63,678 bases of DNA from a virus. Position numbers and translations under genes: made by a program. Below, in pieces: positions 1,993 to 55,924 of this stretch. The notes beneath the pieces are model-generated. The model was not told the origin of the DNA. It did no database searches and was given only the letters and a program-made list of their open reading frames with translations. How positions within the stretch are numbered: position 1 is the stretch's first letter; every line of letters begins with the position of its first letter. The stretch lies in IMG/VR virus record IMGVR_UViG_3300045836_000148, positions 1-63,678 of that record; one strand, given 5' to 3'.

Positions 1993-3678
1993 TCAGCGCT
2001 GCGTGTTGTTCCAGTAATCGGTATTGATGCCGCCACCGTCGCCGCCGGGGAGCGTGCCCGTGGTGGCCCCACCGCCGCTCCCGCCGCCGCTCGAGCCGCC
2101 ACCGCTCGAGTTCGACTCGTTGCTGTTGGCGACCGCCTGAGATGCCGGGGCGATGAACTGGCCGAGGTTCAGGCCGGTGATTTGCGACTGCATCGCCATC
2201 AGGCCGTTGTAGTAGTTCGTCAGGTTCGTCATCGCCGCCGCCTTGGCCGGCGCGTCGAGGTTCTGGTCTTGCATGATCGCGGCCGACGACTGCAGGAACT
2301 GGCTGTAGGTGCTGGACATCGACTGCGACGTCTGCATCTGCACGTTGTACTGAGCCTGCATCGTCATGAGGCTCTTCTGCGTGTTCGCGTTGATCTGCGC
2401 CAGCTGCACCTGCTGCGCCGTGCTCGCGCCCTGCATCGCGCCCTGCACCGCCGCCTGGTAGGCCGCGAGCGACTGCTGCACCTGCGTCGACTGGTTCGCC
2501 GTCTCGGCCGTGAGCGTGTTGCTCATGACCTGCTGCGTCATCTGGTTCTGCGCCGCGACGTTGGCCGACGTCATGGCGTTCTGCTGGTTCGCGTTGAACT
2601 GCTGGTTCGCCTGCGCCTGGCCCGCGTTGAACTGCGACTGCGCGTTGGCCTGCGCCGTGTTCGACTGGCTGACCTGGGTCTGCTGGCCGGCGTTGAACTG
2701 CGCCTGCTGGTTCGCCTGTCCGGCGTTGAACTGCTGCTGCGCGTTGGCCTGGCCGGTGTTGTACTGGCTGGTCGTGTTGGCCTGCTGCGCGTTGAACTGC
2801 TGCTGCTGGTTCGCGGCGCCCGCGTTGAACTGCGCGTTCGTGTTGGCCTGCTGCGCGTTGAACTGCGACTGCGCGTTCGTCTGGCCCGCGTTGAACTGGC
2901 TGGCCGCATTGTCGGCCGAGGCGTTGAACTGGCTCGTCTGGTTCTGCGCCTGGGCGTTGAACTGGCTCGTCTGGTTGGCAGCGGCCTGGTTCGCGGCCGC
3001 GGCCTGCGCGTAGGTCTGCGCGTCCTGCTGCGCCATCGGCAGCGCCGCGCTGTACAGCGCCGACTGCGCCGCGGTGACGCCCATCGACGAGTTGAGGAGG
3101 CCGCGGCCGTTGGACGCCTCGTTGGCCTGCGCGACCGCCTGCTGCATGAGCGGGCTGTTCGCGTTGATGATGCCCGCGACCTGGCCCTGAACGGTCTGGT
3201 TGTTGTCGACGTTCCAGTTCGTGGTGGTGTCGAGCGACGTGTTCGCGTGGTTCGAGCTGGCCTGCGCCGCGTTGCCCGCGGTGCTCAAGCCGGCCTGGCT
3301 GAGGCCAGCGCTGTTGTTCGTCGCCTGGCTGAGGCCGGCCTGGCTCGTGCCGGCCTGGCCGGCGGTCGCCTGCGCGGCCTGCCCCGCGGTCGCACCGGCG
3401 GACGTGGCCGCTTGGCCCTGCGCGGCCTGCGTCGACTGGAACTGGTTCGGGTTGATCTGGCCGACGCCGGTCGGGGCGCCGAGCCCGCTCGTCGTGCTCG
3501 TGGCCGGCGCGCTGCCGGTCGACTGTGCAGCGTCGCTGGTCACGCCGGTCGCGCCCGCGACGCCGGTCGGGTTCGTGGTGCCCGTGTAGATCGTCCCGGG
3601 GTCGGTGCGCGGGACAGCCGGGCCGCCGCTCTCGCCGTTGCCGCTCACCGGCATGATGGTCGCCTGCGTGCTAGCCAT
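1993..3678 (-). CDS. Gln/Asn/Ala-rich virion protein with 12 exact undecapeptide repeats, 561 aa
   Basis: Low-complexity protein. Residues about 60-140 are Ala/Gln/Gly/Thr-rich, followed by a globular-looking stretch (NVDNNQTVQGQVAGIINANS). Residues 238-369 then form twelve contiguous 11-residue units of the type SQFNAGQxNAQ without any insertion, and a helical region follows to a Gly/Ser-rich tail. An 11-residue period is the hendecad of right-handed coiled coils. Its place downstream of the holin genes and upstream of other core candidates suggests a structural or ejection protein. No named family was recognised. It overlaps the preceding gene by eight bases. Confidence 0.8.
   Translation of the reverse strand: MASTQATIMPVSGNGESGGPAVPRTDPGTIYTGTTNPTGVAGATGVTSDAAQSTGSAPATSTTSGLGAPTGVGQINPNQFQSTQAAQGQAATSAGATAGQAAQATAGQAGTSQAGLSQATNNSAGLSQAGLSTAGNAAQASSNHANTSLDTTTNWNVDNNQTVQGQVAGIINANSPLMQQAVAQANEASNGRGLLNSSMGVTAAQSALYSAALPMAQQDAQTYAQAAAANQAAANQTSQFNAQAQNQTSQFNASADNAASQFNAGQTNAQSQFNAQQANTNAQFNAGAANQQQQFNAQQANTTSQYNTGQANAQQQFNAGQANQQAQFNAGQQTQVSQSNTAQANAQSQFNAGQAQANQQFNANQQNAMTSANVAAQNQMTQQVMSNTLTAETANQSTQVQQSLAAYQAAVQGAMQGASTAQQVQLAQINANTQKSLMTMQAQYNVQMQTSQSMSSTYSQFLQSSAAIMQDQNLDAPAKAAAMTNLTNYYNGLMAMQSQITGLNLGQFIAPASQAVANSNESNSSGGGSSGGGSGGGATTGTLPGGDGGGINTDYWNNTQR
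2572..2967 (-). repeat. 12 tandem 33-bp units coding an 11-aa repeat
   Basis: Twelve contiguous 33-base units without a frame break. Each unit encodes [S/A/Q]Q[F/Y/S]N[A/T]xxxxxx. The QFNA core is kept in ten of twelve units, with QYNT and QSNT in the other two, while the other positions drift among Q, A, N, G, S and T. The DNA copies are diverged, so the array is old or selected at protein level rather than a recent slippage product. Confidence 0.9.
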
Positions 3679-4195
3679 TGGTGTTGGCCTTCGCGAGCAG
3701 GTCGGTCTTGCGCGCCGAATCGTGCGTCGTGCCGAACCAGTAGGCCATGACGCTGCCCCAGCCGGTCGTCAGCGAGCCCAGCATCAGCAGCAGAGCCTGC
3801 GAGTCGGTGACGTGGAGCCACCCCAGCAGCATGCCGAGCAGCACGGCGAACAGGCCCACGGTGACGACCAGCGACAGCGTCGCCGGCACGCGCGAGCGCG
3901 TGGTCGACTCCATCGCCCGGGCGCTCGCGCGGTCGTCGGCCGCGATCTTCTCGAGCGACTCGAGGTCGGCGAAGCCGGCCTGTTGCATCTTGAGGGCGAA
4001 GTCGTTGTCGGCTTGCTTGATCGCGAGCATCTGCTCGGGCGTCACGCCGGACAGCGCCTGCTTGATCGAGTCCTCGGTGGGCTTGTCCAGTCCCAGCGCG
4101 CCGCCGATCGCGGTGACCGCCGCGCCGCCGAGCGGGCCGCCCAAGGCGGTGCCGATCCACGGGGCGATCGTGGAGATCAGGTTCTTCCAGTCCAT
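3671..4195 (-). CDS. holin of the three-TM GTA-holin type, 174 aa
   Basis: The N terminus (WKNLISTIAPWIGTALGGPLGGAAVTAIGG) is an amphipathic/hydrophobic segment. It is followed by a soluble helix with ADLESLEKIAADDRASAR, then two strong membrane helices (TLSLVVTVGLFAVLLGML and ALLLMLGSLTTGWGSVMAYW). This order matches the GTA_holin_3TM family, whose members permeabilise the inner membrane for endolysin release. It lies ten bases after another small TM gene. The endolysin gene is about 11 kb upstream in the same late block, so the lysis genes are split. Confidence 0.75.
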   Translation of the reverse strand: MDWKNLISTIAPWIGTALGGPLGGAAVTAIGGALGLDKPTEDSIKQALSGVTPEQMLAIKQADNDFALKMQQAGFADLESLEKIAADDRASARAMESTTRSRVPATLSLVVTVGLFAVLLGMLLGWLHVTDSQALLLMLGSLTTGWGSVMAYWFGTTHDSARKTDLLAKANTNG

Positions 4196-4204
4196 GAGCG
4201 CTCC

Positions 4205-4417
4205 TTAGCGCAGGAAGGGGAGGAGCTTCACGACGAACGCGCCGATCGCTGCGGACATCGTCCCGAGCAGCAGAAGCGTCTTCCAGCCCCCTCGGGCGTT
4301 CTCGATGGCGAGCCGCATCTCCTTGACGTCGGCTCGCACTTCTTCGAGGACTTGGGCATACAGGTCGACCTTGGCCTTGTAGGCGCCGAATTCCTGCGGG
4401 TCGATCGTGTCGGGCAT
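4205..4417 (-). CDS. small C-terminal membrane-anchored protein, possible holin partner, 70 aa
   Basis: Start chosen at ATG 4417; an upstream ATG at 4447 would place its first codons inside the terminator hairpin. The protein has a charged N-terminal helix (VDLYAQVLEEVRADVKEMRLAIE) and one C-terminal membrane segment (TLLLLGTMSAAIGAFVVKLL), the topology of XhlA-type holin accessory proteins. It is the first gene after the 4470 promoter-like element and is followed directly by the holin. A second holin, antiholin or holin partner is the best guess, by position and topology only. Confidence 0.6.
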   Translation of the reverse strand: MPDTIDPQEFGAYKAKVDLYAQVLEEVRADVKEMRLAIENARGGWKTLLLLGTMSAAIGAFVVKLLPFLR

Positions 4418-4435
4418 TCCGTTTCCCCAAAGAAA

Positions 4436-4461
4436 AAGGGCCCGCATTGCTGCGAGCCCTT
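4436..4461 (-). terminator. intrinsic terminator in late leader 3
   Basis: On the minus strand a stem AAGGGC-CGC / GCG-GCCCTT with a six-base loop and one mismatch is followed by TTTTTCTTTGGGG. It lies between the promoter-like element at 4470 and the start codon at 4417, so a transcript from there must pass it before reaching the holin genes. The 13 bases after the stem are identical to those at the 24243 terminator. Confidence 0.75.
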
Positions 4462-4469
4462 GGTGTTCG

Positions 4470-4499
4470 GGACGTACTATCCCGGTCGGTATGTTAGCA
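4470..4499 (-). promoter_or_regulatory. late promoter-like element, copy 3
   Basis: The minus strand reads TGCTAACAT, an extended -10 box of the TGnTAnnnT type, followed by ACCGACCGGGATAGTACGTCC. Twenty of 30 bases are identical in all three copies (4470, 14884, 24342). The element sits 50 bases upstream of a terminator and then the holin genes. No good -35 box is visible. The conserved downstream half would lie at the start of the transcript and could be an antitermination recognition site. Confidence 0.6.
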
Positions 4500-4523
4500 C
4501 TCTTTACTTCTCAGTGCGGGGGA

Positions 4524-4958
4524 TCAGGGGCTGTAGCCGACGTCCCAGGACACGCTACCGCTGCTGTAGACGGTCAGGCCGCCATCGGGGCTGAAGTACA
4601 CGTTCGCGGAACCCGAGCCCTCGGTCGACGGTGAGGAGTTGTGCCACTGAACGTTGAGGCTCGAGTTGATCTTCGTCCAGGCGCCACTCGTGTAGCTGTG
4701 CGAGGTGAGCGTCGTACCGTTGTCGACGAACTGCACCCACCAGCTCGAGCCGACACCCGTCGTCGTCGGCAGGAACCAGTTCGAGCTGGCGCTCGACGAC
4801 GAATTGCCCGAGAACGTGACCGTGCCGTCGCCTGCGAGCGTCAGCGACACCGTCCGGGCGCCGGTGGTGCCGAAGACGTTGTACAGGGTCGCAGTGAAGT
4901 TGGCGTTCGGGCTGCCGTTGCTGAACCCGGTCAGCATGACGTTGGCGATGCCGGTCAC
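4524..4958 (-). CDS. small beta-rich tail-associated protein, 144 aa
   Basis: GTG start at 4958 overlaps the tail-fibre stop as GTGA, giving translational coupling. The sequence is Ser/Thr/Gly-rich with alternating hydrophobic residues (VSLTLAGDGTVTFSG, WWVQFVDNGTTLTSHSY) and aromatic positions, typical of a beta-sandwich. Directly after the tail-fibre gene it may be a fibre tip, adhesin or fibre chaperone. No family was recognised. Confidence 0.65.
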   Translation of the reverse strand: MTGIANVMLTGFSNGSPNANFTATLYNVFGTTGARTVSLTLAGDGTVTFSGNSSSSASSNWFLPTTTGVGSSWWVQFVDNGTTLTSHSYTSGAWTKINSSLNVQWHNSSPSTEGSGSANVYFSPDGGLTVYSSGSVSWDVGYSP

Positions 4959-7672
4959 GAGATGTCCCCGTGGATGACGGCCTCGGCGCCCGTGCGGTAC
5001 CACAACGTTGCCAGGCCGTACGCGTTCAGCGTCCGGTTGCCCGTGTTGGTCGTGCCGCCCTGGCGCACCGTCATGCCCGAGCCCTGCGTGAGCGTGAACG
5101 CCGTCCCGCTGTTGTTGTAGATCGCGTAGACCTCACCCGCGTTGGCGGTGTTGATCGTCTGGCCGGTCGTCGTGACGAAACACTGGCCCCTGGCCCAGCC
5201 CGTCGTGTTGACCGGCATCCCCTTCCAGCCCAGCTCGTACGTGCCGTCGGAGGCGCCGGACACGACACCGCTGGCAGTGGTCGCCGTGGCAGCGTTGCCG
5301 CTGATGTTCGTGACGGTGACCGTGATGTCGCCAGAGCCGTCGAAGGCCACGCCGTTGATGTTGCGCGCCGTCTGTAGCTTGGTCGCCGTGGCAGCGTTGC
5401 CGCTGATGTTCGTGACGGTGACCGTGATCGGCGACGAGCCGTCGAACGACACGCCGTTGATCGTGGTCGCCGTGGCGAGCTTCGTGGCCGTCGACGCGTT
5501 GCCCGTCAGCGGGCCCGAGAGCGCCGTCGCGCTGAGGGTGCCAGTGATCGACAGGCCCGACGACGAGTAAGTCCCGATCGTCGAGTTGTTCACGACGAAG
5601 TTGTGCGTCACGCCCGCGTAGTAGTTCACCGCGCCGCCGAGCACGTTCCCGATGTCACCGATCAGAAAGCGGTTGCTGTTGTCCAGCTCGAAGCCCGCAC
5701 GCAGCGTGCTCGACGCGTCGTTGAACTGCAGGGGGACGTTGTTCGCGGGCGGCGGCACGCTGATCGTGATGTTCGCCGTCCCATCGAAGGCCACGCCGTT
5801 GATGTTGCGCGCGGTGGCGAGCTTCGTGGCCGTCGACGCGTTGCCGGTCAGCGGGCCCACGAACGCGGTCGCGGTCGCGGTGCCGGCGACGTCCAGCGTG
5901 GTCGTCGGCGTCTTGCCGATACCGAAGCGGCCCGACGTGTCGAAGCGCGCGACCTCAGTCGTCGCTTGGACGAACGTGAGGGCCCCGCTCGAGGTCTTCA
6001 GGGCATAGTTGTTGACCGAGTCGTACAGGCGCAACGAGGCGCTGGTCGACGTGTCCCGGACGCGGAACTCGCTCGACGCCCCGAGGAAGTCGAACTTGCT
6101 GGTTGGCGTCGCCATGCCCACGCCGAAGTTGCCCGAGCTGTCGATCACGGCGCCGGTGATGTAGCCCGTCGGCGTGCCGGTGCCGACAGTTGCGTTCACC
6201 AGAAACGACAGGCCGCCGGAGGTGTACAGCGCGTTCGAGCTGCCGGCCCACAGGCCGATGCCGCTCGCGGCGGTGTTCGTGTCCGCCTGGATGAACTGAT
6301 TGCCCGAGGTGCCGCGCACGCGCGCCATGCCGCCCGTGCCGGTGCTGACGTCCAACAGCGTCGACGGAGACAGCGTGCCGACGCCGATCGAGCCACCGCT
6401 GTTGATCACGAGGCGGCCGAGGGTGTTGTTGGTGCCGAAGATCAGACCGCCGACCTGCGCATTCAGGCTGAGGTTGACGCCGTCGTGGTAGGTGTAGCCG
6501 ACCTGCGCGCCCGCGACCTTGAGACCATAGATCGCGCTGGTCGAGCCGTTGACCTCGATCGTCCCGCGGCCCGACGTGCCCCAGCTTGACACGCCGGTGC
6601 CGACCAGGAAGTTACCGGACGCATCGAAGCGCGCCGCCTCGACGTTGCTCGCGAGGAAGCCCACCGAGTGCGCCGACTGCGTGCCGAAGTACAGGACGCC
6701 GTTCGTCGTCGCGCCGGCGGTCTCGGCAACGAAGCCGGTCACGTTGCCGTCGTCGACGACAAGGATCGGCGAGCCCGCGGAGCCGGTGAAGTGCGCGACG
6801 CGGCCGGACGCCGCCGTCACCTCGAACTTGTAGCTCCCCGTCGGCGTCGAGCCAGTGAGCGCGACGTTGCCGGCGGCATCGATCTGCTGGCGCAGCGTGC
6901 CCGCGGTCAGCAGCTTGATGCCCGCACCGTTCTCCGCGGCGATCGTGACGGAGCTGCCCTGGTTGAACCCTATGTAGCCGGTGCGCGCCGACGCGGCCGA
7001 GTTGTACCCGGAGAGGAAGGCGGCGTCGTTGACCAGGCGCACCTGCTCGGCCTGGCCGTTCTGCACGTGCAGGCCGACCAACGGAGCAACGCCGATGCCG
7101 ATGCCCGCCGTGGTGACCCGTGCGACGTTGACCGACGCCACGGCCAGGTCGATCTCCGATGAGGCACGGATCGCCGTGAAGCTCGAGGCGACGGCGAAGT
7201 CGACGTCACCGTAGTAGAACGTCGCGGCGCTCATCAGCGCGGCGCGGCGCGCCGTGCCGCCGCCGTCCTTGAAGCGCAGGCCGACGGCGTTCGGGAAGAC
7301 GATCTCGCCCGTCATCGTGCCGCCACCGGTCGGCAGGTACGCGAGCACCATCGCCGTCCAGGTCGAGGAGCCGTCGTACTGCTCGAAGAGACCCGTCGCC
7401 GAGTTCAGGCGCTTCGCGCCGGCCGGCGCGCTGGTGTAGTCGATCGTGTACGCCGGGTCGAACAGCTGGGCGATGTTGCCCACCGTGAACGACGACGCGG
7501 ACATGCCGGTGGCGCCCGCGTTGATCGAGACGACCTTGTTCGAGTTGGCCGCGTAGGTCGGCAGCCGATCGAACGCCGCCTGGATCGACGCGAACTCGGC
7601 CCGGATGTTCGCCGAGGTACCGAGCGAGCCCGTCGTCGGCGAGCCCGTCGCGGTGTAGTACGGATTGCTCAT
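4955..7672 (-). CDS. tail fibre protein, 905 aa
   Basis: The N terminus (NPYYTATGSPTTGSLGTSANIRAEF) has the look of podovirus fibre anchors followed by a phase-setting helix (FASIQAAFDRLP). The long middle is Ser/Thr/Gly-rich beta-structure with repeated short motifs such as DASGNFLVGT, DSSGNFGVGM and DTSGRFGIGK. The last 290 residues contain repeated GNASTATKLATARNINGVAFDG units common in phage fibres. It probably forms the trimeric host-binding fibre. The following gene is translationally coupled. No chaperone endosialidase domain is apparent at the C terminus. Confidence 0.85.
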   Translation of the reverse strand: MSNPYYTATGSPTTGSLGTSANIRAEFASIQAAFDRLPTYAANSNKVVSINAGATGMSASSFTVGNIAQLFDPAYTIDYTSAPAGAKRLNSATGLFEQYDGSSTWTAMVLAYLPTGGGTMTGEIVFPNAVGLRFKDGGGTARRAALMSAATFYYGDVDFAVASSFTAIRASSEIDLAVASVNVARVTTAGIGIGVAPLVGLHVQNGQAEQVRLVNDAAFLSGYNSAASARTGYIGFNQGSSVTIAAENGAGIKLLTAGTLRQQIDAAGNVALTGSTPTGSYKFEVTAASGRVAHFTGSAGSPILVVDDGNVTGFVAETAGATTNGVLYFGTQSAHSVGFLASNVEAARFDASGNFLVGTGVSSWGTSGRGTIEVNGSTSAIYGLKVAGAQVGYTYHDGVNLSLNAQVGGLIFGTNNTLGRLVINSGGSIGVGTLSPSTLLDVSTGTGGMARVRGTSGNQFIQADTNTAASGIGLWAGSSNALYTSGGLSFLVNATVGTGTPTGYITGAVIDSSGNFGVGMATPTSKFDFLGASSEFRVRDTSTSASLRLYDSVNNYALKTSSGALTFVQATTEVARFDTSGRFGIGKTPTTTLDVAGTATATAFVGPLTGNASTATKLATARNINGVAFDGTANITISVPPPANNVPLQFNDASSTLRAGFELDNSNRFLIGDIGNVLGGAVNYYAGVTHNFVVNNSTIGTYSSSGLSITGTLSATALSGPLTGNASTATKLATATTINGVSFDGSSPITVTVTNISGNAATATKLQTARNINGVAFDGSGDITVTVTNISGNAATATTASGVVSGASDGTYELGWKGMPVNTTGWARGQCFVTTTGQTINTANAGEVYAIYNNSGTAFTLTQGSGMTVRQGGTTNTGNRTLNAYGLATLWYRTGAEAVIHGDIS
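5281..5855 (-). repeat. NINGVxFDG fibre repeats inside the tail fibre gene
   Basis: Within the fibre gene the block ATKLxTAxxINGVxFDG plus a following TVTVTNISGNAATAT segment occurs three times in close succession between about 5281 and 5515 and once more near 5770-5855. The DNA copies are close enough to recombine with one another, a known route to fibre length and host-range change in phages. Confidence 0.8.
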
Positions 7673-7684
7673 GTTCCCTCCCGA

Positions 7685-9730
7685 CTACCGCAGCGCGCGT
7701 CGCGGCGAGTAGTGAATCGTCGTCGTGTTGATCGTGAACGGCGCGATGCAGTTGGACGAGCCCGTGACGGCGAGCGCGACGTTCTCGGCGCTGCCCGTCA
7801 TCTCGACCTCGATCGGGCCCAGGGCCCGGCCGTCCCAGTAGAACGACTCCCAGTACATCGCGTCCCAGTAGTTCTGCCCCAGTGCCGTCGTGTAGGCCGC
7901 AGGCAGCGTCACGTCGTGGATCGTCGCGTCCGCATAGCTCAGGTCATATCCCACGTTGAACTGCGCGAAACTCGTGCCGTTCACCTCGAGGGCGGCCTTG
8001 CGGAAGCGCTTGATCTCGCGCGCATTGCCGATCGCGTTGAAGTTCAACCGCAGCGCCCAGTCGATGTTCTGCCCGTCGCAGCTGGTGCCCGCGTCGAGCA
8101 TGTAGACGTAGCCGTTCGAGGAGCCGAAGAAGGACGCCTCGGGCGTCGTACCGGTGCTCGGGCCCTCGCACCAGCAGTACACCGGGTTCGGGAAGTAGAC
8201 GGGCATGGCGCCCATCGTCGTCCCGTTGTTGATCGTGATGTACAGGCCGTAGCCGTCGCTGTAGAAGATCCGGTACTGGCCTTTCTCGCGGTTCAAGCCG
8301 GCCGCCGTCGCCTTGCCGCGGTGCGCCTGGATGAACGGGCGCACCGCCAGCGTGAGCGTGTCACTGTCGAAATTGCCGTAGTTCTTCGACGTGTTCATCG
8401 AGACCACGCCGCGGTCGGCGAGCTGGTAGCTCTGCTCCATGTTCTGCACGGTGTTGAACGTCGCGCCCAGGCCCGTGTTGAACGGCACCATCTGCCACGT
8501 CGACGCGCCAGTGCCGTACAGGATGTAGGTCGTTGACGTAGTGAAGACGCCGAGCGCGCCAGTGCTCTGATTGCCCGGCAGGATCGAGAAGCCGGTGACC
8601 GGGTTGTCCGTCACGATCTCGCCCGCGCCGACCACTGCCGACCACTGGTACGGCAGGTTCAGCGCCGAGAACTGGATGCTCGGGCCGAAGGCGAAGAAAA
8701 GGAAGGACTTGTGCACGACGACGCACTGCGGCGTGTCGCTTGCCATGCCGGTGCGGATCGGCACGAGCGTCGTGCCATCGAACTCCCAACCGCAGTTCAG
8801 GCCGTCGCAGCCGTAGAGCTTCGTGGGCTGCGCGCCCCCGAAGTTGTTCGCCACGGTCTGCACGTTGCCGCCGGGCAACAACGTGATCTGCGTCGGCACG
8901 GCGGTCATCGTGGCGCAGCTGGTCGCACCGACCTTGATCGCCTCGCCCGCGGTGAACGTGCCCGTGATGCTCTTGACGATGAGGCGGCCGGCGCCCGCAG
9001 CGCCCCAGGCGCCGGACTCGAGCACCGCGCGCATCACGATCGCAGTCGCGCCACTGCTGCCACCGGTGATCGTGGCGCCGTCGTTGATCTGCGTCGTGCC
9101 ACTCGAGAACGACAGCTGCGAGCCGAACAGCACCGTCGTCCAGCCCGCGCCAGAGGACTTGTACATGCCGAGCGCCGTGCCGGACGTGTTGTCCCGCCAC
9201 GCGTAGACGGAGCCAGCGTAGTACGCCACGCCGCGCACCGGGCCACTGCCGGGCACCGGCTGGATGACGGCGCGGTATGCATCCGCCGCGGCAGCCTGGT
9301 ACTGCGCCGCGAGCAGCCCGGTCGCCTGCGAGCCGACCTGGGTCACGGTGCCGACAGGAGTGCCCCCCACGCTGACCGTGTCGCCGGACAGCGGTGCGCC
9401 CGTAGCCATCGTGTAGTAGATCGACGTCCCGTCGTTCACTACGGCCAGGCCCGAGGCGCCCGAGCTGGTGGTGAACATCGTGCCAACCGTCACGCCGGAG
9501 GTCGAGTTCATCTTGAACGCGCCGAGCGTGGCCGCGCTCGGGGCCGGGCGGCCGTCGAAGCGCTCGTACCCCGCGATGCGCGTGTAGCCGCCGGTGATCG
9601 AGACCTCGAAGTTCAGCGAGTCGCGCGCGACCCCCGGGGCCAGCGACTGGGGCGGCGTGACCAGGTCGAGGCCGCCCTTCAGCTGATACGACGAGAACTG
9701 GATCGGGGCGAAGCCGGGAGCGCGCGCCAT
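7685..9730 (-). CDS. tail hub/stabilisation protein, 681 aa
   Basis: Start placed at ATG 9730, just after the neck protein stop. The N terminus QLKGGLDLVTPPQSLAPGVA followed by LNFEVSITGGYTRIAGYERF is characteristic of a podovirus tail protein that joins the neck to the fibre. The rest is beta-rich with repeated ligand-like turns and few charged helices. By position (after the adaptor, before the fibre) it corresponds to the P22 gp10 or T7 gp12 functional slot, the tail nozzle or hub. Function is from order and composition only. Confidence 0.65.
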   Translation of the reverse strand: MARAPGFAPIQFSSYQLKGGLDLVTPPQSLAPGVARDSLNFEVSITGGYTRIAGYERFDGRPAPSAATLGAFKMNSTSGVTVGTMFTTSSGASGLAVVNDGTSIYYTMATGAPLSGDTVSVGGTPVGTVTQVGSQATGLLAAQYQAAAADAYRAVIQPVPGSGPVRGVAYYAGSVYAWRDNTSGTALGMYKSSGAGWTTVLFGSQLSFSSGTTQINDGATITGGSSGATAIVMRAVLESGAWGAAGAGRLIVKSITGTFTAGEAIKVGATSCATMTAVPTQITLLPGGNVQTVANNFGGAQPTKLYGCDGLNCGWEFDGTTLVPIRTGMASDTPQCVVVHKSFLFFAFGPSIQFSALNLPYQWSAVVGAGEIVTDNPVTGFSILPGNQSTGALGVFTTSTTYILYGTGASTWQMVPFNTGLGATFNTVQNMEQSYQLADRGVVSMNTSKNYGNFDSDTLTLAVRPFIQAHRGKATAAGLNREKGQYRIFYSDGYGLYITINNGTTMGAMPVYFPNPVYCWCEGPSTGTTPEASFFGSSNGYVYMLDAGTSCDGQNIDWALRLNFNAIGNAREIKRFRKAALEVNGTSFAQFNVGYDLSYADATIHDVTLPAAYTTALGQNYWDAMYWESFYWDGRALGPIEVEMTGSAENVALAVTGSSNCIAPFTINTTTIHYSPRRALR

Positions 9731-25367: not shown

Positions 25368-25589
25368 ATGTCCAACCCCACGCGCCCCCTCGCCTCCTCA
25401 CAGCGCGCCATCATCGGCACGGCGCGCCTCGCCGAACTCGGCAACGAGGTCGAACTCCTCGCGCTCGCCGACGATCTGGCCGGCGGCGGGCAGTTCTATG
25501 TCATCCGCGGCAAGGGCGAATCTCGCCCCTTCGGAGTCTGGCCGAACGAACTCACCGACATCGCGTGGGCGATGCCGCTTGCCGATTGA
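25368..25589 (+). CDS. early small protein, 73 aa
   Basis: Contains ARLAELGNEVELLALADDLAGGGQFYVIRGKGESRPFGVW, an alpha/beta pattern without known signature. The stop TGA is immediately followed by the first copy of the repeated intergenic stem-loop. Unknown function. Confidence 0.6.
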   Translation: MSNPTRPLASSQRAIIGTARLAELGNEVELLALADDLAGGGQFYVIRGKGESRPFGVWPNELTDIAWAMPLAD

Positions 25590-25631
25590 TTGCAGCCGCT
25601 ATGCCCCGCGTGCAGGGCATGCGAGTGCAAT
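25589..25631 (+). repeat. intergenic stem-loop element R1
   Basis: Outer stem ATTGCA / TGCAAT encloses internal loops GCCGC(T) and GCGAG and an inner stem ATGCCC / GGGCAT. It begins at the last base of the stop codon and ends about 20 bases before the next ribosome site. No U-run follows, so it is not a standard terminator. Confidence 0.85.
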
Positions 25632-25657
25632 CCGCACGGCAACGAGGAAACGACAGC

Positions 25658-25894
25658 ATGGCAACGACAGCGGGGACTATCGACCTCACGCCCACCTGGG
25701 GCGAGTGGGGCAACATTTACCGGCGTCTCGCCGAGTCTGGCGAGCGCAATGCCGTCCGCGGACTCGCCGCGGACTTCGCGAAGGCGATGGCCGCGTGCGC
25801 CGCGCTGCAGGCGATCCGCGGAACGCTCACGGACGATCAACACGCCGTCGTCGCGCGCACGATGGTCGACGAACTCACCAAGCAAGGATTCTGA
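25658..25894 (+). CDS. early small helical protein, 78 aa
   Basis: Starts with TTAGTIDLTPTWGEWGNIYRRLAESGE followed by helices (FAKAMAACAALQAIRGTLT, HAVVARTMVDELTKQ). The pattern -DLTPTWGEWGNIYRRLAESGE- looks like a small plasmid/phage early protein family of unknown role. The next gene starts two bases after its stop. Confidence 0.65.
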   Translation: MATTAGTIDLTPTWGEWGNIYRRLAESGERNAVRGLAADFAKAMAACAALQAIRGTLTDDQHAVVARTMVDELTKQGF

Positions 25895-25896
25895 TC

Positions 25897-26367
25897 ATGT
25901 CCGACATCCGCAGCACCGACGACACCATCGACATGCACGACCTCATCGAGCGATTCGAAGAGCTGCGCGACGAACTAATCGAGCGCCACGAAGCCGGGGG
26001 ATTCATGTCCGATTTCGACGACTGGATCAACAACTCTCGCGACAACTCAGCCCCGACCCACGCGGCGTTCCCGGAGGACGGCGCGCAGGTACAAGAGGAT
26101 ATCGAAGAGTTCTTCAAGCTGCGTGAGCTGTTGGACGACCTGAAGGTCTACGGTGGCGATGTGCAATGGGAGGGCGATTGGTACCCGAATTCGCTGATCC
26201 ATGAAAGGCACTTCGTCGACGCGATGAAGGAACTGTGCGAGGACATCGGCGACTTCCCGAAGGACATCCCGTCGTACTACGTGATCGACTGGGAAGCGAC
26301 CGCCGATAACCTACGCGTCGACTACAGGTCGACCGAGTTCGACGGGCAGACTTTCTGGTACCGCTGA
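25897..26367 (+). CDS. conserved acidic early protein, antirestriction-like composition, 156 aa
   Basis: Very acidic. Helical N terminus DLIERFEELRDELIERHEAGGF, and a C-terminal domain with HFVDAMKELCEDIGDFPKDIPS then DWEATADNLRVDYRSTEFDGQTF. That C-terminal pattern recurs in phage and plasmid early proteins. High negative charge is shared with DNA-mimic antirestriction proteins such as ArdA, but I cannot assign this gene to that family. The stop codon is fused to stem-loop R2. Confidence 0.6.
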   Translation: MSDIRSTDDTIDMHDLIERFEELRDELIERHEAGGFMSDFDDWINNSRDNSAPTHAAFPEDGAQVQEDIEEFFKLRELLDDLKVYGGDVQWEGDWYPNSLIHERHFVDAMKELCEDIGDFPKDIPSYYVIDWEATADNLRVDYRSTEFDGQTFWYR

Positions 26368-26410
26368 TTGCAGCCGCTATGCCCTGCGCGCCAGGGCATG
26401 CGAGTGCAAT
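26367..26410 (+). repeat. intergenic stem-loop element R2
   Basis: ATTGCA, GCCGCT, ATGCCCTG-cgcgc-CAGGGCAT, GCGAG, TGCAAT: an outer six-base stem, an asymmetric internal loop and an eight-base inner stem. It begins with the A of the preceding TGA stop. Confidence 0.9.
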
Positions 26411-26433
26411 CCCGCACACAACGAAGGAAAGCT

Positions 26434-27213
26434 ATGCATCCCGTAACCTTTGACTCTGACCGCGCAATGCCGATGCTCGGCGTTCCGGGCCGCCTCACGC
26501 ACCGCACCACCCGCGCCGGTCAGGCCCCGGGGCTGTGGTTCAAGCAACGCTGGGTCAGCGATCCCCGGCCGATCAGCGGCTACGGATCCGGCGGACTACT
26601 CCAGGTCGAAGTGCGATACGACGACGAATTGGGCAACGGCCGCAATAGCTTCGCGATCACCGCAACCGTCACAACGCCCGCGAGCATCCGACAGGGCGAC
26701 ACCGCCGCGGGTGGCTGCCTGCACGGCGACATCGCGCGCGTTTTCCCCGAGCTGGCTCCGCTGATCCGGTGGCACCTGTTCGACTCCGACGGCCCGATGC
26801 ACTACATCGAAAACACCCTTTACCACGCGAGCGACCGCGATCACAACGGCCTCACCAAGGGGGAGCGCCAACAGATTCGCAACGGCAAGACGGGAAAACT
26901 GGCCTGGAAGCTCGAAAAGGTCGGCCCAGACGTCGACGCTCCCGCGCACATCTACGCGGACGAGCAGCCGACACCCCCGGATGTCCGCCTGGTGTATGTG
27001 CCGTGGGAACGCATCGGCGAGGGCAAAGAACGTGACCTCAAGGCGGCCCGAAGCTGCGCGGCGTGGCCGGACGCGACCGACGAACAACTTTGCGCCCCGC
27101 GTGAGACGCTGAGGGCCGCACTTGAAGCCCGGCTCCCCGCGCTGATGGCCGAGTTCCGAGCAGCAATCGTCAGCGCAGGTTTCGCGTTATCCCCCGCCGA
27201 CCTAATCGCCTGA
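26434..27213 (+). CDS. conserved phage/plasmid early protein, 259 aa
   Basis: The block GGCLHGDIARVFPELAPLIRWHL followed by SDGPMHYIENTLYHASDRDHNG is a recognisable segment of a family found on plasmids and phages with no known function. Conserved His, Asp and Tyr residues in it (CLHGD, MHYIENT) could form a metal or catalytic site. AAGGAAA precedes ATG 26434. The largest gene of this early operon. Confidence 0.65.
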   Translation: MHPVTFDSDRAMPMLGVPGRLTHRTTRAGQAPGLWFKQRWVSDPRPISGYGSGGLLQVEVRYDDELGNGRNSFAITATVTTPASIRQGDTAAGGCLHGDIARVFPELAPLIRWHLFDSDGPMHYIENTLYHASDRDHNGLTKGERQQIRNGKTGKLAWKLEKVGPDVDAPAHIYADEQPTPPDVRLVYVPWERIGEGKERDLKAARSCAAWPDATDEQLCAPRETLRAALEARLPALMAEFRAAIVSAGFALSPADLIA

Positions 27214-27255
27214 TTGCAGCCGCCAAGGGTCGCGTGCGGCCCTTGCGAGTGCAAC
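27213..27255 (+). repeat. intergenic stem-loop element R3, with a swapped inner stem
   Basis: Same plan as R1 and R2 (outer ATTGCA / TGCAAC, loops GCCGC and GCGAG), but the inner stem is AAGGGTCGC / GCGGCCCTT with a GU pair. The whole stem sequence differs from the other copies while pairing is kept, which is compensatory change. Confidence 0.85.
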
Positions 27256-27279
27256 CACCAACGAAAGGAGAAACGCACT

Positions 27280-27555
27280 ATGGCAACCACCGTTTGGCTC
27301 GTGATCGACGAGGATCGCCAGTCGCCCGAAATCGGCGTGTCCGTCTGGGCCTCGCGCGACAAGGCGATCGCCGACGCGCGCGAGTGCATCGAGCAATACC
27401 GCAACGATTCGACCATCCCGGCCGAGGACATCGACGCCGCGCTCGCGGACTTCGATGCCGATCTGACGAACGATGGACAGAGCGACGTCGGCGCCGGTGA
27501 TCCGAACTGCCGGTTCTGGGTCGAGGTGCGTTCCGAACTCGTGCGGGAGGACTGA
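27280..27555 (+). CDS. early small acidic protein, 91 aa
   Basis: Ribosome site AAAGGAG before ATG 27280. Beta strand VWLVIDEDRQSPEIGVSVWAS, then an acidic helix region and CRFWVEVRSELVRED, a small alpha/beta fold with strong negative charge. Unknown function. Two bases separate it from the next gene. Confidence 0.65.
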   Translation: MATTVWLVIDEDRQSPEIGVSVWASRDKAIADARECIEQYRNDSTIPAEDIDAALADFDADLTNDGQSDVGAGDPNCRFWVEVRSELVRED

Positions 27556-27557
27556 CC

Positions 27558-27782
27558 GTGCCGAAGTCGAAGCCCCTCATCCCGCAAGCGCAATGGCCCG
27601 CGATCTACGACGCCGTTCGCGAGATTGTCGACTGCTCGTACGACGTCGGCGACTGGCGCGACATGGGCGACGCCAACGCCGAGCCGCTCGCGGCCGTCAT
27701 CGATCGCGCCGACGCTGCAAAGGCCAAGCTGTTCGATCTGCTCGGGATGCCTGCCCCGACGCCTGAAGACCCGATCCGCTGA
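27558..27782 (+). CDS. early small protein, 74 aa
   Basis: GTG start directly downstream of the previous stop. Features IYDAVREIVDCSYDVGDWRDM and a helix AAVIDRADAAKAKLFDLLGM. No family recognised. Its stop is fused to stem-loop R4. Confidence 0.6.
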   Translation: MPKSKPLIPQAQWPAIYDAVREIVDCSYDVGDWRDMGDANAEPLAAVIDRADAAKAKLFDLLGMPAPTPEDPIR

Positions 27783-27825
27783 TTGCAGCCGCGATGCCCT
27801 GCGCGCCAGGGCATGCGAGTGCAAT
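27782..27825 (+). repeat. intergenic stem-loop element R4
   Basis: ATTGCA, GCCGCG, ATGCCCTG-cgcgc-CAGGGCAT, GCGAG, TGCAAT. Nearly identical to R2 and R5; it starts at the stop codon. Confidence 0.9.
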
Positions 27826-27851
27826 TCCGCACGCTGACAGGAGAGAACGCA

Positions 27852-28112
27852 ATGCCTGGTTTCTGGAACGTCAAGGGGTCGTTTTATCGCGACGACAACC
27901 GCCTCGAAAATCACCACACGCTCGTAATCAATCGCGACTTCTCCGATCCGTACACCGGCGGCATGTGGACGGCGCGTCGCGAACTGCAATCCCAAGACTA
28001 CGCGCCTGTTGTCATGCGCTGCGAGAACCAGCTCGGCTACTTCGTCCCCGAGCGCGGCGAGGTCGAGCGCATCGGCATGCCGCTCGGGCCCGATAGCTGG
28101 GCCGAGGGCTGA
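27852..28112 (+). CDS. early small beta-rich protein, 86 aa
   Basis: Sequence GFWNVKGSFYRDDNRLENHHT and QDYAPVVMRCENQLGYFVPE suggests a compact beta fold. ATG 27852 follows CAGGAGA. Function unknown; located between R4 and R5. Confidence 0.6.
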   Translation: MPGFWNVKGSFYRDDNRLENHHTLVINRDFSDPYTGGMWTARRELQSQDYAPVVMRCENQLGYFVPERGEVERIGMPLGPDSWAEG

Positions 28113-28118
28113 CTTGCG

Positions 28119-28162
28119 ATTGCAGCCGCGATGCCCTGCGCGCCAGGGCATGCGAGTGCAAT
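28119..28162 (+). repeat. intergenic stem-loop element R5
   Basis: Same sequence plan as R4. Here it lies six bases after the stop codon rather than fused to it, showing that it is a unit separate from the coding sequence. Confidence 0.9.
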
Positions 28163-28184
28163 CCCGCACTGACACGAGAACATC

Positions 28185-28406
28185 ATGCGAACCATTGACA
28201 TCGACTCGGCCAACGGCCAATTCCACGGCACCATCGTCGTCGGCCAATACGTCGCGTATTGGACGTCTGACGACACGAGCGACAGCCTGCCGATGACCAT
28301 CGGAAGCTATGCAACGCCGGAAGCGGCGATCAAGGCCGCAGAAGCGGAGGCCGTCAACGCCGGTCTGTCCGGCGGCCGCTGCCACGCGCACGTCGTCACG
28401 GACTGA
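28185..28406 (+). CDS. early small protein, 73 aa
   Basis: Beta N terminus (TIDIDSANGQFHGTIVVGQYVAYW) and a helix (YATPEAAIKAAEAEAVNAGL). Possibly a small regulator or inhibitor; no known family. The stop is fused to element R6. Confidence 0.6.
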   Translation: MRTIDIDSANGQFHGTIVVGQYVAYWTSDDTSDSLPMTIGSYATPEAAIKAAEAEAVNAGLSGGRCHAHVVTD

Positions 28407-28448
28407 CCCCAGGCGCCATGCGTCGCGGTGCGGCGCATTGGCCTGGGG
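28407..28448 (+). repeat. intergenic stem-loop element R6, diverged
   Basis: Outer stem CCCCAGGC / GCCTGGGG and inner stem ATGCGTCGC-ggt-GCGGCGCAT. Neither stem shares sequence with R1-R5 except the TCGC..GCGG inner tip of R3, yet the two-stem architecture and the position after a stop codon are the same. Confidence 0.7.
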
Positions 28449-28479
28449 CCATCCCAGGACAACAACGAGTGGAGAAACG

Positions 28480-28641
28480 ATGTACCAATTCCGAATCCGC
28501 TTCTCTAGCGGGCTGCTCGCCTGCGTCCGCGCGGCGCATGTCTTCGAGGCCGCGTGCCTCGCGTTCCGTGTCTCGGCGTTCATGCCGTCACCCATCGAGG
28601 CGATCGAGCGGCTCGGCCAGCTTGATCTGTTCGCGCAATGA
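28480..28641 (+). CDS. early tiny protein, 53 aa
   Basis: GTGGAG before ATG 28480. Contains YQFRIRFSSGLLACVRAAHVFEAACLAFRV and ends PIEAIERLGQLDLFAQ. Its last codons overlap the next gene by four bases. No family recognised. Confidence 0.55.
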   Translation: MYQFRIRFSSGLLACVRAAHVFEAACLAFRVSAFMPSPIEAIERLGQLDLFAQ

Positions 28642-29006
28642 GCCGCCGCCCGACCAAGGAGGACGACCCCATGCCGCAGCTCTGCTCCACCGCCGACACG
28701 CTCACCCTGGCGTTGTTCCTCCACGCCGCCGAGGGCGCGAGCGTGCGCGACACCGCGCTCGCTCTGCGCCGGCTGAACAACCACGCGATCGAAGCCCGCG
28801 AGGGCAAGGGCGCGCGGCTGTACGTCACGCCCGGTCGCGTCGAGGAAGCCAAGAAGCTCCACGATCGCGCGACGCCGCTCGCGCTGCACAACACGGCCCG
28901 GCTGTTCGCCCAGCAGTGCACCGGCATGACCGACGCTCCCGAGTGGCGCACGCTGCAGCGCATCCTGACACTGGCCGAGGCGAGGATGCTCAAGCACCGG
29001 CATTAA
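28638..29006 (+). CDS. early helical protein, 122 aa
   Basis: ATG 28638 overlaps the previous stop as ATGA; ATG 28671, with GGAGG upstream, is a plausible alternative. The pattern TLALFLHAAEGASVRDTALALRRLNNH followed by a basic segment resembles a winged-helix-like DNA-binding domain but lacks a clear signature. A terminator follows, so it is the last gene of the early unit. Confidence 0.6.
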   Translation: MSRRPTKEDDPMPQLCSTADTLTLALFLHAAEGASVRDTALALRRLNNHAIEAREGKGARLYVTPGRVEEAKKLHDRATPLALHNTARLFAQQCTGMTDAPEWRTLQRILTLAEARMLKHRH

Positions 29007-29016
29007 GTCTCGGTTG

Positions 29017-29057
29017 AACGGCCCCGGTGTTATCCAGCTTTACACCGAGGCCGTTTT
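29017..29057 (+). terminator. terminator closing the early small-gene unit
   Basis: Stem AACGGCC-c-CGGTGT / ACACCG-a-GGCCGTT with an 11-base loop and TTTT. The upper stem and loop also contain TGTTAtccagcttTACA (29028..29044), one mismatch from the operator palindrome. Confidence 0.8.
29028..29044. promoter_or_regulatory. operator-like palindrome O8 (one mismatch, within a terminator)
   Basis: TGTTAtccagcttTACA upstream of the 29106 gene. The match may be a by-product of the terminator stem (GGTGT/ACACC), so it is weaker evidence than the other sites. Confidence 0.3.
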
Positions 29058-54862: not shown

Positions 54863-55924
54863 TTAGTCCAGCATCGCGGCCAGGTCTTGAACCTTGGGGT
54901 TGTAGTAGCGCAGCGCTTCCTTCATCGACCGGCGGCCGGTGATCTTCATGAAGTCCGCCAGCGCGATCTTCTTCGTTCCGACCAGCCAAGTCGAGTAGGT
55001 GTGCCGCAGGTCGTGCAAGCGCAGGCCGGCGACCTCCGGGTGCTTCTCGGCGAGAACGGCCCGTTCCTGGCCGTACAGCGTGGTCAGGCTCTCCTCGTGG
55101 ATGTCGAAGAGACGATCGGAGCCCTTAGCACGCTGGTGCTCGACCAGCTTCGCGATCCAGCGCACGGCTTCTTGGCTCAGGGGGCACCGGTACGGAAGGC
55201 CGTTCTTCATCAGCTCGGACTTGTAGGTGATCCCGCGGGTCTTCAGGTCGATCCAGGCCAGCTGCGTTTGAACCAGCGAACGACGACGCAGCCCCGTGGC
55301 GTTGGCGATGATAATGAACCAGGGGATGTAGTCGGTCTTCCTCTCCGGCGCCTTGTTCTCGTCGAACTCGAAGTGCGCCAGGAACAACTCGATGTGCTCC
55401 GGCTCCCAGATCGTCTCGCGTTCGGCGTCAGCGCCCTCCGGCCGGAGAACGGCCTTCGCGGGGTTCGCCATGGCGTAGCCCCACTCCTTGATCGCGAACG
55501 TGAAGATGCTCGAGATCAGGTTGAAGTCGCGCTTGACGGTCTGCGGCGTCGCGATGACGCCCTTCGGGTTCGGCTTCGTCAGGCGCCAGTCGCGCCACTC
55601 GCGCAGCGACCGGGCGATGTCCATGTCCAGGGTCATCGCGGCCCACGGCGTCTGCAGGAAGTGCTTGATCCGGTTCTGCTCCCACCGGCAGCCCTTGCGC
55701 TCCGGGCAGACCTCGTCCCGGAAGTTCTCGAGCAGCTTGGCGACGGTCGTCGCGCGCAGTTCCTTCGCGTCCTCGATGGCGTCGCGCTTCATGGCGTGAC
55801 GGGCCTTCATCGTCGCGAGCCAGGACTCGGCTTCGCGACGGGTGCCAAAGGTGTCCGAGATGGACTTGTACCCCGGCTTCCGGTAGGTGGCCGTGAAGCG
55901 GCCCTCGCGGTTCTGGATGGTCAT
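54863..55924 (-). CDS. int: tyrosine recombinase (phage integrase), 353 aa
   Basis: SAM-like N-terminal domain (SWLATMKARHAMKRDAIEDA, TVAKLLENFRDEVCPE) and catalytic domain with Arg near 213 (ANATGLRRRSLVQ), LHDLRHTYSTW (His304-x-x-Arg), and nucleophile Tyr in EALRYYNPK (about 340). All catalytic residues are present, so it should integrate the phage at an attP/attB pair. ATG 55924 is preferred; TTG 55978 would extend it by 18 residues. Operator-like site O7 lies 125 bases upstream. Confidence 0.9.
   Translation of the reverse strand: MTIQNREGRFTATYRKPGYKSISDTFGTRREAESWLATMKARHAMKRDAIEDAKELRATTVAKLLENFRDEVCPERKGCRWEQNRIKHFLQTPWAAMTLDMDIARSLREWRDWRLTKPNPKGVIATPQTVKRDFNLISSIFTFAIKEWGYAMANPAKAVLRPEGADAERETIWEPEHIELFLAHFEFDENKAPERKTDYIPWFIIIANATGLRRRSLVQTQLAWIDLKTRGITYKSELMKNGLPYRCPLSQEAVRWIAKLVEHQRAKGSDRLFDIHEESLTTLYGQERAVLAEKHPEVAGLRLHDLRHTYSTWLVGTKKIALADFMKITGRRSMKEALRYYNPKVQDLAAMLD

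Follow-up and report, generated by a model that had tools for sequence, protein, structure and literature searches.

Two-stem hairpins fused to stop codons upstream of small phage genes: a candidate family of RNA leader modules

The window analyzed here is a 63.7-kb virus record (IMGVR_UViG_3300045836_000148, positions 1 to 63,678) with a G+C content of 68%. Its terminase and portal genes are located on the minus strand, and a run of small genes lies on the plus strand at approximately 24.95–29.06 kb. Judging from its gene content, this operon is presumably an early one. Six gaps of approximately 65–75 nucleotides split the run into translation units, and the remaining gaps are at most 12 nucleotides long or are gene overlaps. 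An original prediction, made from the sequence alone, had placed six structured elements (R1–R6) in this operon, and all six are present where they were predicted. One element occupies each long gap, so that no non-coupled boundary between genes of the run is without its hairpin. Their exact spans are as follows.

25587..25632, plus strand: R1 hairpin, starting with the UGA that ends the upstream gene
26365..26411, plus strand: R2 hairpin, base fused to a UGA stop
27211..27256, plus strand: R3 hairpin, whose first three bases are a UGA stop; inner stem altered, loops retained
27780..27826, plus strand: R4 hairpin, base fused to a UGA stop
28117..28163, plus strand: R5 hairpin, with the upstream stop 7–8 nucleotides before the element
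28404..28450, plus strand: R6 hairpin, whose first three bases are a UGA stop; probable diverged member that has lost the internal loop

The hairpin common to R1–R5 is 46–47 nucleotides long and is closed by a 7-base-pair outer stem (GATTGCA/TGCAATC), beyond which follow a 2x2 mismatch (GC/AG), three base pairs (CGC/GCG), a 1-nucleotide bulge, and an inner stem of 6–8 base pairs with a closing loop of 4–8 nucleotides. The window contains exactly five instances of the pattern TTGCAGCCGC...GCGAGTGCAA, all on the plus strand, whereas 100 dinucleotide shuffles contain none. These five exact copies of the core, R3 included, agree with the claim that the loop bases are retained in R1–R5. The proposed internal loop (GCCGC facing GCGAG) is smaller than had been thought, as GC/AG is indeed unpaired and CGC pairs with GCG. 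R2, R4, and R5 are nearly identical to one another, and R1, R2, R4, and R5 have almost one and the same inner stem, so that all covariation within R1–R5 stems from R3. There, four inner-stem pairs are changed on both sides with the loops kept, which is the swap for another paired sequence that had been noticed originally. The predicted placement at or just after a stop codon is likewise found, with UGA fused to the hairpin in R1–R4 and R6 and R5 starting just past its stop. An ordinary intrinsic terminator was rejected, in line with the prediction, because no U-run follows any copy and the terminator scan listed none of them.

R6 probably belongs to the family, as far as its sequence can tell. 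The covariance model aligns it in the same register, gap-free within the hairpin, with three additional doubly changed pairs in the outer stem, and when R6 is included, 7 of the 18 pairs covary, a value that none of 500 shuffles reached. R6 and R2 are identical at 26 of 47 positions, which random hairpins of the same plan starting with TGA match in approximately 1.4% of draws, and R6 has the leader CAACGAnnGGAGAAACG in common with R3. Its membership is only probable because it lacks the GC/AG loop and obtains an E-value of 0.71 under a covariance model built from homologues only. The claim of one shared plan stands for R1–R5. For R6, the position, the register, and the three compensated outer pairs fit stems that were replaced yet stayed paired, and the weak membership tempers that part of the claim.

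Homologues were found in approximately 30 IMG/VR phage contigs by means of a covariance model of R1–R5 and, subsequently, sequence patterns. The model, which was run over contigs retrieved by terminase similarity, delivered clear relatives in the contigs L095 (two clear copies and a weak third one) and L120. Two sequence patterns derived from these relatives led to 22 and 13 contigs, most of which were confirmed by the model. A strict structural descriptor returned 37 distinct elements versus 7 in reversed sequence; a loose one returned 145 matches versus 104 in the reversed control, hence about as many false matches. For the set of 31 distinct hairpins from 19 loci, five without anchors were dropped and R6, L128, and L130 were added by hand. 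Since several contigs are near-copies, the number 31 overstates independence, and the fair number is 11 clusters at 80% identity.

In these 31 hairpins, 493 of 502 stem cells are paired, 14 stem pairs carry compensatory changes, and 98 cells are doubly changed versus 24 in shuffles, a covariation count that is biased upward because the descriptor demands pairing. The alignment built by the model search agrees with it, and most stem pairs are still doubly compensated when each cluster contributes one representative. The matches found by sequence pattern only are less biased, and in 8 of their 11 distinct spacers the inner stem runs for 5 base pairs or more without interruption, where 1.2 such spacers would be expected. 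The compensations are spread over the outer stem (GATT/AATC, GATG/CATC, CATT/AATG, CC/GG), the 3-base-pair segment, and the inner stem. A covariance model without any window sequence recovers R1–R5 with E-values from 3e-10 to 5e-13; its independence is partial, as the homologue alignment was fitted by the window-derived model. The original prediction had argued for selection on RNA structure and had named a covariance analysis with more homologues as the test by which this could fail. That analysis contains covarying pairs, and the argument is borne out by homologues that a covariance model could find and by pairs that are mostly doubly compensated across the 11 clusters. The bases CA, the mismatch C.A, and AGUG are near-invariant across the relatives, partly by construction, since CA and AGUG are anchors of the descriptor. 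At position 6, most relatives have a pyrimidine that mismatches C43 (Y.C), where the window has a G that pairs with it (G-C).

Outside these contigs, searches for the exact 20-base core in other viral and bacterial contigs gave chance matches only, those examined lying inside coding sequence; a well-folded Burkholderia match to the exact core was rejected because it lies within the signal peptide of a predicted lipoprotein. A host origin was also rejected, as none of 399 genomes from the order of the Burkholderia locus contains the 16-mer GAGTGCAATCCCGCAC. Phages sharing early genes with the window (Lana, JWF, Paku, Siara, and others) are without the element, and in the collections searched, close relatives of the window were found neither by DNA nor by comparison of the portal, g6, or g5 proteins. 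A match in Xanthomonas phage SB4 (E = 3 by sequence, short) is taken as suggestive only.

What stays constant is the distance from the element to the start codon. Of the 51 occurrences of the core, 40 are followed by a gene that has a ribosome site and begins 17–31 nucleotides past the end of the hairpin; among the other 11 are contig ends, occurrences probably due to chance, and gene starts missed by the simple rule (e.g., that following R5). Most internal copies begin with the three bases of the upstream UGA stop. There are also copies before first genes, for example at position 4895 of L095, where no upstream operon gene is evident. The downstream proteins are diverse, and a SprT-like gene is accompanied by the element in L120 and L136 and lacks it in L095. 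Given the first-gene copies and the constant distance to the start codon, the element is part of the leader of the following gene; together with the SprT-like gene that occurs with or without it, these copies make it start-associated and separable from genes. It is thus not a pure intergenic spacer, and the original view of intergenic elements is accurate as to where the hairpins lie and has to be revised as to which gene they belong to.

In the window, the genes and further features around the hairpins are the following.

25368..25589, plus strand: small gene upstream of R1
25658..25894, plus strand: small gene after R1, 78 residues, without family match
25897..26367, plus strand: phrog_25535 protein, weakly ArdA-like (antirestriction), within the element-bearing operon
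26434..27213, plus strand: 259-residue protein after R2, phrog_17696
27280..27555, plus strand: small gene after R3
27558..27782, plus strand: small gene before R4, GTG start
27852..28112, plus strand: small gene after R4
28185..28406, plus strand: small gene after R5
28480..28641, plus strand: small gene after R6; overlaps with its downstream neighbor (28638–29006)
29018..29057, plus strand: likely intrinsic terminator ending the operon, a stem followed by TTTT, identified by eye

The terminator scan did not list this last feature, as its loop exceeds the length used in the scan. Relatives of the phrog_25535 protein in other phages are located near genome ends or in early regions. Elsewhere in the window lie a tyrosine integrase domain (54896–55318) and a direct-repeat array (2566–2942) with 33-nucleotide spacing, which falls in a minus-strand gene and corresponds to an 11-residue protein repeat.

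At the 3' side of the element, a second structure can be drawn that would compete with the outer stem.

26404..26417, plus strand: GUGC-AAUCCC-GCAC, the putative competing 3' hairpin of R2

Equivalent candidates can be drawn after R1, R4, and R5, and R6 comes with a variant of its own. The AGUGC of the 3' arm can pair with a downstream GCAC(U) or equivalent over at least 4 base pairs in 32 of 36 copies, with 12.8 expected from shuffled tails; the 32 include L143, L146, L147, and L149, which have no outer stem, and a few are weak and rich in G-U pairs. In many relatives, the two states lie within approximately 1 kcal/mol or less of each other, and the letters of the second hairpin's stem hardly vary. 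Upstream of a start codon, T7-like Stenotrophomonas and Xanthomonas phages carry a longer stem, after which comes a 3' hairpin of this kind. In L152–L157 (Stenotrophomonas/Xanthomonas Autographiviridae), three consecutive hairpins with the strands GGCAC, GCACUGCG...CGCAGUGC, and AGUGC...GCACU stand just before an early gene, and neighboring hairpins are mutually exclusive because they share strands. In related contigs, many copies of the element are followed by the palindrome GTTTAAAC in place of the CCGCAC tail. The same palindrome is found on the minus strand of L095 (approximately 3360–5560) in several intergenic regions, often 15–25 nucleotides before starts. A structured-looking stretch, GGAGGAAGTCCGGGAGCAAGTCAGACAGGGTTCAAGCCCTGT, is located just upstream of the first element on that strand (approximately 4920–5050) and resembles a tRNA T-arm or RNase P-like text; Rfam gave no match for it in the overlapping locus L121.

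The conserved pairing, the fixed sense orientation, and the fixed distance to the start codon speak for a leader module in the RNA whose target is the gene below it. On the strength of such sequence features, we give about even chances to the proposal that these hairpins form a family of phage-encoded, cis-acting leader modules that set or insulate the expression of the following small gene. The module would consist of the hairpin, a short tail, and a ribosome site directly before small non-structural genes, and would act in the mRNA by forming between the ribosome terminating above and the ribosome initiating below. The expression of each gene might thereby be insulated from, or set independently of, that of its neighbors. 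With the stop codon located in the 5' arm, termination requires the ribosome to open the outer stem, and the 3' arm freed in this way could, in relatives with a GCAC tail, form the second hairpin of near-equal energy, which would make the module a possible two-state switch. The part recognized by a protein or by the ribosome might be the conserved mismatch core (5' CANC facing 5' AGUG).

Several observations weigh against this proposal. Predicted access to the ribosome site is barely altered by the hairpin in most window copies, which leaves simple sequestration unsupported. The idea that the 5' arm sequesters the ribosome site, suggested by UYCA facing UGGA in some folds, was rejected because own leaders pair with the arm no better than other leaders do. 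The outer stem is favored by 4–6 kcal/mol in R1, R2, R4, and R5; R3 has no competing hairpin, and copies of the GTTTAAAC-tail class have a weak one or none; and common descent alone could explain the conserved tail. The evidence for a bistable switch amounts to hints, not proof, given that the second hairpin's stem shows hardly any variation in its letters and that the SB4 link relies on a short match. It is doubtful that each small gene has a bistable leader in which the ribosome terminating in the 5' arm opens the outer stem and the 3' hairpin relays upstream translation to the next start, the whole cassette being traded among unrelated phages.

Phage T7 carries RNase III processing sites (R0.3, R0.5, R0.7, R1, and R1.1), which are two-stem hairpins between early genes. 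The main rival explanation holds that the hairpins are sites of this type, at which host RNase III cuts the early mRNA to give each gene its own 5' end, and we regard it as possible, if on balance improbable. When T7 R0.5 was folded for comparison, two stems, a medial defect, and a stop codon fused at the base were obtained. The elements of the window match this geometry as intergenic hairpins of two stems with a medial defect, a TGA stop at the base, no U-tract, and approximately 20 nucleotides to the next start. They contain approximately 18–21 paired positions in total and occur several times per early operon, and a similar 3' module follows an 18-base-pair stem in the T7-like Xanthomonas and Stenotrophomonas phages. 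However, no sequence relation was seen, the carriers include phages that do not look T7-like, and the conserved mismatch core (CANC/AGUG) is more constrained in sequence than a structure-only enzyme should need. Stems of approximately 18 base pairs, as in many members, are short for RNase III, and copies before first genes would have nothing upstream to be cut away from, though T7 R0.3 is in a similar situation. The window encodes no RNase III, so that processing would need the host enzyme.

The remaining alternatives, namely recombination seams, DNA binding, and 3' stabilization, explain less than the RNA leader or the RNase III reading. The repeats could be kept as crossover points for small-gene cassettes, with any RNA function being secondary. 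Such seams would suit elements that border cassettes of unrelated genes, a gene that is found with or without the element, and the near-identity of R2, R4, and R5, and T4-like phages do carry recombinogenic promoter/stem-loop cassettes (PeSL, as cited in PMC4503421). Seams require sequence identity, however, whereas the stems vary in their letters and keep their pairing, and recombination has no need of a constant spacing to the start codon, which makes this origin unlikely. Inverted repeats that work at the DNA level by way of a DNA-binding protein, which is the function suggested for the extended start-associated sequences (ESAS) of cluster K mycobacteriophages, are very unlikely. The arms GATTNCA/TGCAATC are near-symmetric, and the ESAS authors preferred DNA binding (PMC3203893), but the central mismatch stays asymmetric and always in the sense direction, and both arms shift jointly to new sequences, which a fixed DNA recognition sequence would forbid. 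We see hardly any likelihood that REP-like stabilizers of mRNA 3' ends, blocking 3'-5' exonucleases for the gene above, account for the family; these are stable hairpins at stop codons within an operon, yet their fixed distance is to the start codon below and some copies have no gene above.

Searches against described RNAs returned no counterpart. Rfam release 15 gave no match in the window at the gathering threshold, none at E ≤ 1 for positions 25500–28520, and none in 16 homologous loci. No phage RNA of this kind was found described in open-access papers, subscription journals being mostly outside the search. An integron attC site was rejected, as the arms GATTNCA/TGCAATC lack R'/R'' boxes (RYYYAAC/GTTRRRY) and the integrase is far off. 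The closest precedents, each for parts of the plan, are the ESAS, which come nearest, and the T7 RNase III sites, so that the originally claimed novelty of the plan holds with respect to Rfam and is qualified by these two. Like the ESAS (PMC3203893), the elements are phage-specific and recur several times per genome as imperfect inverted repeats that have a short spacer and lie directly before the starts of non-structural genes. ESAS carry the 13-base-pair sequence SAS (GGGATAGGAGCCC) 3–7 base pairs from the start codon (PMC3203893), and the hairpins described here are likewise start-adjacent, at 17–31 nucleotides. In contrast to the ESAS, they have no sequence in common with them, the SAS being absent from the leaders read here, and a stop codon is fused to the stem. 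The changes in the ESAS arms give little support for RNA pairing (PMC3203893), whereas the changes in the arms described here preserve it.

PeSLs of T4-like phages, as far as they are summarized in a citing paper (PMC4503421), combine an early promoter with a terminator. The hairpins resemble these cassettes as stem-loops bordering shuffling early-gene cassettes and differ from them in that the scan found neither a promoter-like site nor a U-tract at the elements. Hairpins of GGTTCGTAACGAACC with a ribosome site likewise precede several small genes of Achromobacter phage JWF (L010), where this palindrome is located at gene starts (969–1010, 1607–1648, 3527–3568, and 9552–9593); unlike the present elements, it has a different sequence and a single short stem. 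JWF contains a second start-associated repeat (CACAGCACACA-GACGAAGGA) as well, and its repeats form a system separate from the present one. In Burkholderia phage Paku (L012), a hairpin of the same plan in another sequence, with two stems, an internal loop, and a TGA stop overlapping its base, lies at approximately 3121–3180 in a T7-like early region.

We regard the hairpin as a probable, hitherto undescribed element in the control of phage genes. Early genes of phages are mostly small, of unknown function, and packed into tight operons, and the source of their individual expression levels is poorly known. A module at the gene start whose structure is conserved across many phages provides a defined handle on this question of per-gene expression, and the hairpin is a candidate new RNA family and a candidate marker for early-gene cassettes in metagenomes.

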